The position numbers were made by a program, and so were the translations under genes. The notes beneath the pieces are model-generated. The model saw only the letters and a list, made by a program, of their open reading frames with translations. It ran no database searches and had not been told where the DNA came from. Shown here piece after piece: positions 27,767 through 28,533 of a DNA stretch of 64,000 nucleotides (the first letter of the stretch is position 1; each line of letters starts with the position of its first letter). Origin of the DNA: Halobacteriales archaeon YIM A00010. GTDB taxonomy: Archaea; Halobacteriota; Halobacteria; Halobacteriales; Haloarculaceae. The stretch lies in the NCBI GenBank assembly GCA_025041175.1, contig JAKCFJ010000003.1:310001-374000 (forward strand), written 5' to 3'.

Positions 27767-27770
27767 GTGT

Positions 27771-28483
27771 TCAGATACGCCGATTCCGTGTGACGGCGAA
27801 TGGTCGAAACAACTCGTTAGCAGTTTCTGCGTCGGCATTGCTGAAACAGTTTAAGAACGAAGAAGTACGTCGTTTCACCTCTCGAAAGACACGTTTGACA
27901 CTGTTTCGATATCCGTGCCGTTCATATATGAAATCGAGACCATGATGGCGACAGGCGTCTTTCAATGGTGTCGCACCATCGACGAGAAATACGGCGTCAG
28001 CGTGTTTCTCACGCAATTCACGGACAAATGCGTGAGCGATAGCGTTCGTTCTTGTTGGTTCAAGCGTTGTATGGGGTAATTCGTTCGTCTCAGGATCGAC
28101 AGCAGTCACGAGAGCTGTGCTCTCGTGAGTCAACCAGACGTCAAAGACGTCTGGTGAGCAGCCAGATTCCGATGGAATCTGGCGACAGCATACAGCCAGT
28201 ACTGCTCATCGTTCAGTCGAATCACAGTCTCATCAACCGCAATGTGATCCGAAGTTCGTCCATCCTCGGGCTGTAGATCGGCCTTGTGCACCCAATTGTG
28301 AACCGTCGAACGAGCCCGTTTGACACCGAATATCTCAAAAATAGTAATGGTATTCGAAAGCGATAATTCAGTAAGATGGAGCTGAATACCGAGCGTTATC
28401 AACAGTCGCAGTGTTGCTTCTCGCTCCACAACATCCACGTCGATGTCGTCCAAACATCCGTTGAGGCGGACGTTTTCTGGCAT
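27771..28483 (-). pseudogene. IS6-family transposase split by a hairpin insertion
   Basis: The N-terminal part (start 28483) has an HTH-like segment RARSTVHNWVHKADLQP and the first catalytic Asp in VDETVIRLNDEQYWLYAV. The C-terminal part has the second Asp in FLVDGATPLKDACRHHG and the Glu in NSVKRVFREVKRRTSSF. Together these are the D-D-E transposase of IS6. Between YAV and DPETNE lie 86 extra bases (78-base insert plus an 8-base duplication) that change the frame and add stops. Removing exactly these 86 bases restores one frame of about 208 codons. Confidence 0.85.
28106..28183. repeat. 78-base insert of three perfect hairpins with 8-base flanking repeats
   Basis: Three hairpins stand in a row: 28107-28129 (10-bp stem, loop TGT), 28135-28155 (9-bp stem, loop AAA) and 28163-28183 (9-bp stem, loop GAT), with 5- and 7-base spacers. 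CGACAGCA occurs directly before the insert (28098-28105) and directly after it (28184-28191), as a target duplication would. The insert interrupts the IS6 transposase. Confidence 0.85.
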
Positions 28484-28533
28484 GAATTACGAGAAAATCG
28501 TTCCGCCTCATCCTTCATCCGTATCTGAACACC

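Follow-up and report, generated by a model that had tools for sequence, protein, structure and literature searches.

Candidate non-autonomous mobile DNA hairpin units of Halobacteria, including an array inserted in an IS6-family transposase gene

CGTC-REP and the Rickettsia elements RPE-4 and RPE-6 are short hairpins with an unpaired tag, mostly arranged as inverted pairs, also clustered, present in frame in genes, and with no known transposase (PMC3733652, PMC10969869). The haloarchaeal hairpin units described here resemble them in these respects, and TGTC or CGTC also lies beside haloarchaeal hairpins. In-gene insertion, often in frame, was found for a GH3 glycosidase, an AMP-binding enzyme, a LacZ/ricin-type lectin protein, TnpA, TnpB, and IS6. 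CGTC-REP/RPE have stems of 8-9 bp, loops of 4-5 bases, and a CCA tail, whereas the haloarchaeal units have stems of 7-11 bp, 3-base C(GNA)G loops, other stem sequences, and the tails TAGCA/TGGCA rather than CCA. They also differ in belonging to Halobacteria, in having empty sites with a 2-3 bp duplication, and in forming nested arrays of up to 11 hairpins. The CGTC-REP/RPE combination of stem, loop, tail, and a CGTC, TGTC, or CCTC tag was not found as a whole; the tag was found in part (TGTC, CGTC). REP/BIME/REPIN sequences with RAYT (TnpA-REP) also form mosaic hairpin arrays with fixed short spacers and a likely single-strand substrate; unlike them, the haloarchaeal units carry no GTAG (or GTGG) tag, have feet such as TC, TAGCA, GACA, TGAC and similar, and are commonly intragenic. 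In a survey, the Y1 transposases of archaea all fell into the IS200-type subclass (PMC6006769). The Haloquadratum repeats SMR-A (~110 bp) and SMR-B (80 bp) are, like the hairpin units, very small mobile haloarchaeal repeats of unknown mobilisation, and SMR-A mostly attacks IS605-type elements and PATEs (PMC3119063). The ~110 bp of SMR-A is near the 107 bp of a four-hairpin unit in genome G374. The SMRs are described by inverted ends, with no target duplication and not as hairpin arrays; set side by side by description alone, they may be relatives of the hairpin units. PATEs and IS200/IS605 ends share with the units ~22-bp palindromes and 52-bp minimal forms, but have no target duplication, a single palindrome in the minimal forms, and another end geometry (PMC3119063). 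Among open-licence papers we found these related kinds (REP/BIME/RAYT, CGTC-REP/RPE, PATE, SMR), not this hairpin family, which may have been described elsewhere.

The window, that is, the whole 64-kb stretch of DNA analysed, is C3:310001-374000 of a 5.97-Mb genome (G000). At 28106-28183 it holds three consecutive perfect hairpins, each with a 10-bp stem and a 3-base loop. The earlier note had seen the three perfect back-to-back hairpins with 3-base loops correctly, but had given the stems as 10, 9, and 9 bp. The features are listed below.

27767..28532, minus strand: interrupted IS with inverted ends GTGTTCAGATACG / CGTATCTGAACAC, from an inverted-repeat search; ends common to paralogues
27792..28483, minus strand: host gene, IS6-family transposase split by the array; an uninterrupted relative matches NF033587
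28103..28105, unstranded: left copy of the target duplication, CAG, from comparison with uninterrupted IS6 copies of the same genome
28106..28185, unstranded: inserted hairpin array, 80 bp, starting with TC and ending with GA, from empty-site comparison
28106..28128, unstranded: hairpin 1, TCACGAGAGC-TGT-GCTCTCGTGA, 10-bp stem and 3-base loop, from the sequence
28129..28132, unstranded: spacer GTCA (TGAC on the other strand), matching the spacer beside the identical stem in other arrays
28133..28155, unstranded: hairpin 2, ACCAGACGTC-AAA-GACGTCTGGT, from the sequence
28156..28160, unstranded: spacer GAGCA, a variant of the usual TAGCA, which is commonest in two-hairpin units
28161..28183, unstranded: hairpin 3, GCCAGATTCC-GAT-GGAATCTGGC, from the sequence
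28186..28188, unstranded: right copy of the target duplication, CAG, from empty-site comparison

The stem of hairpin 1 is identical or near-identical in L002, L003, L004, and L006, and that of hairpin 3 recurs in L002, L003, and L005. As single-strand DNA, the array folds at -32.7 kcal/mol, compared with -12.9 +/- 2.4 for shuffled sequences (z -8.2). No second hairpin pair or array was found within the 64-kb window, and five 64-kb first-order Markov sequences, used as a control, contained none. An Rfam search returned nothing at gathering thresholds; a known RNA family was thus rejected.

An uninterrupted relative of the host transposase matched NF033587 (3e-57), and the two window halves gave no Pfam match. 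Genome G000 contains eight near full-length copies of the transposase that are unbroken at the window site. When aligned, the uninterrupted copies read TGGCTGTAYGCNGCNGTYGATCC at the site (Y-A-A-V-D-P; family motif YWLYAAVDP). The window fits these copies as TATG-CTG^TC...GA^CTG-CTGTCGATCC (^ marks an insertion border), that is, as an 80-bp insert plus a 3-bp CTG (CAG) duplication, a net 83 bp. Excision of 83 bp yields QYWLYAAVDPETNE and restores the motif, whereas excision of 86 bp, by which the earlier note had rejoined the transposase, leaves the motif one codon short. CGACAGCA does flank the array on both sides (28097-28104 and 28183-28190), as had been reported, but its right copy includes the final base of hairpin 3, and an 8-bp target duplication is ruled out by the uninterrupted IS6 copies in G000. 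These copies bear out the clean insertion of hairpin-only DNA into a transposase that had been proposed; not all relatives of the IS carry the insert. Judged from the reading frame, the +83 bp insert is a frameshift and this transposase copy is dead. The IS6 element at 27767-28532 is one of many broken and intact copies (82 protein matches in G000), the genome being rich in decaying IS6.

Two further copies carry arrays at the same IS6 site, one of four hairpins (L004) and one of eleven (L012). The last four hairpins of L012 correspond to those of L004, and seven more lie on one side. The common end suggests that both arrays grew out of a single ancestral insertion; loss is the alternative. 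A single IS6 copy (L012 1272-1918; G000:C2 near 163.6-164.2 kb) has arrays at two sites, of 11 and at least 7 hairpins.

The array is not an isolated case. A 94-base query found 12 places in the same genome at E <= 0.001, including the window itself, and the 17-base core TCTGGYTGCTARCCAGA with up to two mismatches found 51, compared with 12 for a reversed-pattern control. On 854 kb of contig C3 (positions 1-854000), 21 arrays of at least two hairpins were counted, against one in a Markov control; G000 contains dozens of such arrays, of 2-11 hairpins each, with stems mostly of 7-11 bp. Allowing one mismatch, 87 of 391 genomes across Halobacteria contain the core, and these hits involve 34 of the 87 genera of the order. 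The exact two-hairpin pattern occurred on 35 contigs of the genome collection, all 35 from Halobacteria; the name Actinarchaeum halophilum refers to Halocatena halophila. The plasmid collection, searched with the 94-base query, gave no matches, and plasmid spread was rejected. Viral contigs gave one match, and the stretch around it contained no two-hairpin array passing the filter. The other copies anticipated by the earlier note do occur, at other sites and with other short duplications. Its single 78-bp element, in turn, gives way to a mosaic: the units come from a large modular family, in which two hairpins usually make up a unit. Very probably, the window array belongs, as one copy, to a halobacterial family of mobile DNA hairpin units that are non-autonomous; this reading includes the account of unit, target, folding, and trans-acting enzyme given below.

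The usual unit has two hairpins, a length of ~45-57 bp, a spacer of 3-7 bases, and the bounds TC...GA, and is flanked by a 2-3 bp direct repeat that is usually CA/TG. In the TAGCA reading, the commonest unit is CA^TC(H1)TAGCA(H2)GA^CA. Of 134 arrays, 91 have TC...GA termini. The spacer GACATC (GATGTC) of long arrays reads as GA^CA^TC, in which one unit ends with GA, the next begins with TC, and CA is the dinucleotide common to both. Direct repeats were scored on 52 distinct sets of flanks around TC...GA ends: 25 have one for k=2 (shuffled mean 8.0, maximum 16, 1000 shuffles) and five for k=3 (0.49 shuffled). Repeats other than CA/TG also match (CGG/CGG, CAG/CAG, CGT/CGT). Empty sites were available for IS6, TnpB, the AMP-binding enzyme, and the TCATCA spacer of another hairpin pair. 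Those of TnpB are CCGG^CTTC (CGG duplicated) and, at the TnpB 3' end, CCCCA^CCC (CA). A second insertion site in the IS6 gene, of 57 bp and in frame, also has an empty-site comparison. An identical two-hairpin unit occurs at the 3' ends of TnpB-type elements in Halorubrum, Halogranum, and Halorientalis (L113, L120, L138, L139, L142, L144-L146), where it appears to travel along with the IS.

Nesting of units was also read from comparison. The pair GTT(..)TCATCA(..)AAC is empty in L089, L117, L136, and L022. In eight copies in G374, and also in L116, L107, and L243, its spacer contains a type-A unit: TCA^TC(..)TAGCA(..)GA^CATCA. At the sequence level, this nested GTT/AAC pair is the cleanest proof of unit insertion. 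Insertion and the short duplication are deduced by sequence comparison, and most of the empty sites are paralogues with about 70-90% identity. Some hairpin pairs, such as L009 1189 and C3 667248, have a duplication of 0-1 bp when compared with their best empty site. In the CA/TG majority, any single locus could instead have a fixed element end and no duplication. In G374, a homogeneous 107-bp four-hairpin composite is present in at least eight copies with similar flanks (L227-L234).

The hairpins are conserved as paired DNA. When hairpins were picked by the spacer and 5' arm alone, the 3' arm was perfect in 56 of 75, compared with 7.5 after the 3' sides were swapped. Across 27 distinct 23-mers, 96.7% of cells pair, with 36 double-change cells against 9.8 shuffled. 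The triloops in arrays are closed by C-G in 318 of 325 cases, and GNA or its complement TNC makes up 69% of these 325 triloops versus 15% in background hairpins, which stand alone on the same contig (p = 2e-27). GNA-loop DNA mini-hairpins closed by G-C pairs are extraordinarily stable (PMC4686876). The loops also differ by inversion between copies: L231 and L232 differ within their 107-bp element in one loop only, TTT versus AAA, and in L139 versus L142 both loops differ in this way. Taken together, the covariation, C(GNA)G loops, and loop flipping suggest a folded single-strand or cruciform stage. The earlier note had considered a substrate for a single-strand recombinase; covariation and the C(GNA)G loops favour the single-strand part.

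Some of these features would also be expected if replication switched templates between CA/TG microhomologies and copied parts of existing arrays, with no dedicated enzyme involved. Such switching predicts flanking microhomology, perfect stems, and loop inversion within palindromes, and multi-hairpin blocks do recur whole. We consider it unlikely, though, as the origin of the units: the discrete TC...GA bounds are found again with many stem types, and also where the target is not CA/TG.

Several units lie inside genes that are read through. In the GH3 glycosidase (L021 1370-1579; G000:C1 near 2583932), eight hairpins are in frame between two Pfam domains in a stop-free frame of 785 aa. The insert in the AMP-binding enzyme (L035) is 57 bp, or 19 codons, and is read through; the gene occurs without it in L253 and L254. 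An array is likewise read without stops in a beta-galactosidase with a ricin-type lectin (L101). In an IS200 TnpA (L250 1828-1868, minus strand), a two-hairpin unit of 45 bp, or 15 codons, is in frame as TG^TC...GA^TG. Further stop-free arrays are in TnpB (L207, L215) and IS6 (L178), and the remaining arrays are intergenic (e.g. L129) or in broken genes. We take the in-frame share to reflect selection and claim no insertion bias. Programmed ribosomal bypassing, with hairpins between matching triplets, was rejected: several inserts are plainly in frame, and others are in dead genes or intergenic.

We propose the following course of events for the hairpin units. A non-autonomous unit would insert at a short, mostly CA/TG target and leave a 2-3 bp direct repeat, as the empty sites show. 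Insertion would create new target dinucleotides at the borders and in the spacer, so that later units could land beside or inside earlier ones. Tandem nested arrays in one orientation would arise because each insertion adds target dinucleotides; nesting is shown by comparison, and the order of growth is inferred. The unit would pass through a folded stage, either as a single strand or as a cruciform, for instance on the lagging strand, and a presumed enzyme acting in trans would cut and join units. Units of frame-keeping length would survive inside genes, like Rickettsia palindromic elements, and others would mark dead genes, such as the window copy.

A conventional DDE transposase moving a MITE-like element with the inverted ends TCRCCAGA...TCTGGYGA through a 2-3 bp staggered cut would explain the 2-3 bp direct repeats and the inverted TC/GA ends. 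This is a rather improbable source of the units. The 854 kb of C3 contained no longer, autonomous element with matching TCRCCAGAA ends, and different stem families have only TC...GA in common. The listed type-A units all face the same way with respect to the CA target, which is unusual for DDE insertion, and the perfect internal hairpins, GNA loops, and loop flipping would be left unexplained.

Degenerate IS200/IS605 ends, or terminal-only PATEs, are also quite unlikely. In such elements, moved by TnpA, the hairpins would be the left and right subterminal palindromes around a deleted core. Hairpin size and single-strand stability are compatible with this, and G000 has four Y1 TnpA genes. In IS605 elements the junction is far out from the hairpin foot, with the cleavage tetranucleotide at a distance, whereas the listed type-A units have only 2 nt between foot and junction. 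None of the four TnpA genes is flanked by a matching hairpin pair as its ends; one carries a unit in its own frame (L250), and the TnpB adjoining another carries two (L249). In Haloquadratum, the palindromes of PATEs are ~22 bp long and near-terminal, and terminal-only forms measure 52 bp (PMC3119063), but a terminal-only PATE formed by inter-repeat deletion retains one palindrome, not two. IS605 and PATE insertions are also without target duplication (PMC3119063), whereas the flanks of hairpin units repeat, including CGG/CGG, CAG/CAG, and CGT/CGT. The IS605/PATE model fails because of the duplication and the end geometry: neither the absence of target duplication nor a junction far from the hairpin foot was found in the units.

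We suggest, tentatively, that the units may form a distinct class of transposable DNA made of GNA-triloop hairpins only, which would move as folded single strands via an archaeal enzyme, leave a 2-3 bp duplication, build arrays by self-insertion, and add in-frame peptides to working archaeal proteins. If true, palindromic DNA that invades genes, a feature of Rickettsia and some other bacteria, would also be present in Halobacteria, where clean empty sites mark out the unit, target, and duplication. Loop flipping, together with C(GNA)G loops, would be unusually direct sequence evidence that small hairpins function in cells as folded DNA. Because genetic work is feasible in haloarchaea such as Haloferax, the unsolved movement of REP- and SMR-like repeats would become testable, and the in-frame peptides in enzymes would represent natural protein-insertion experiments.
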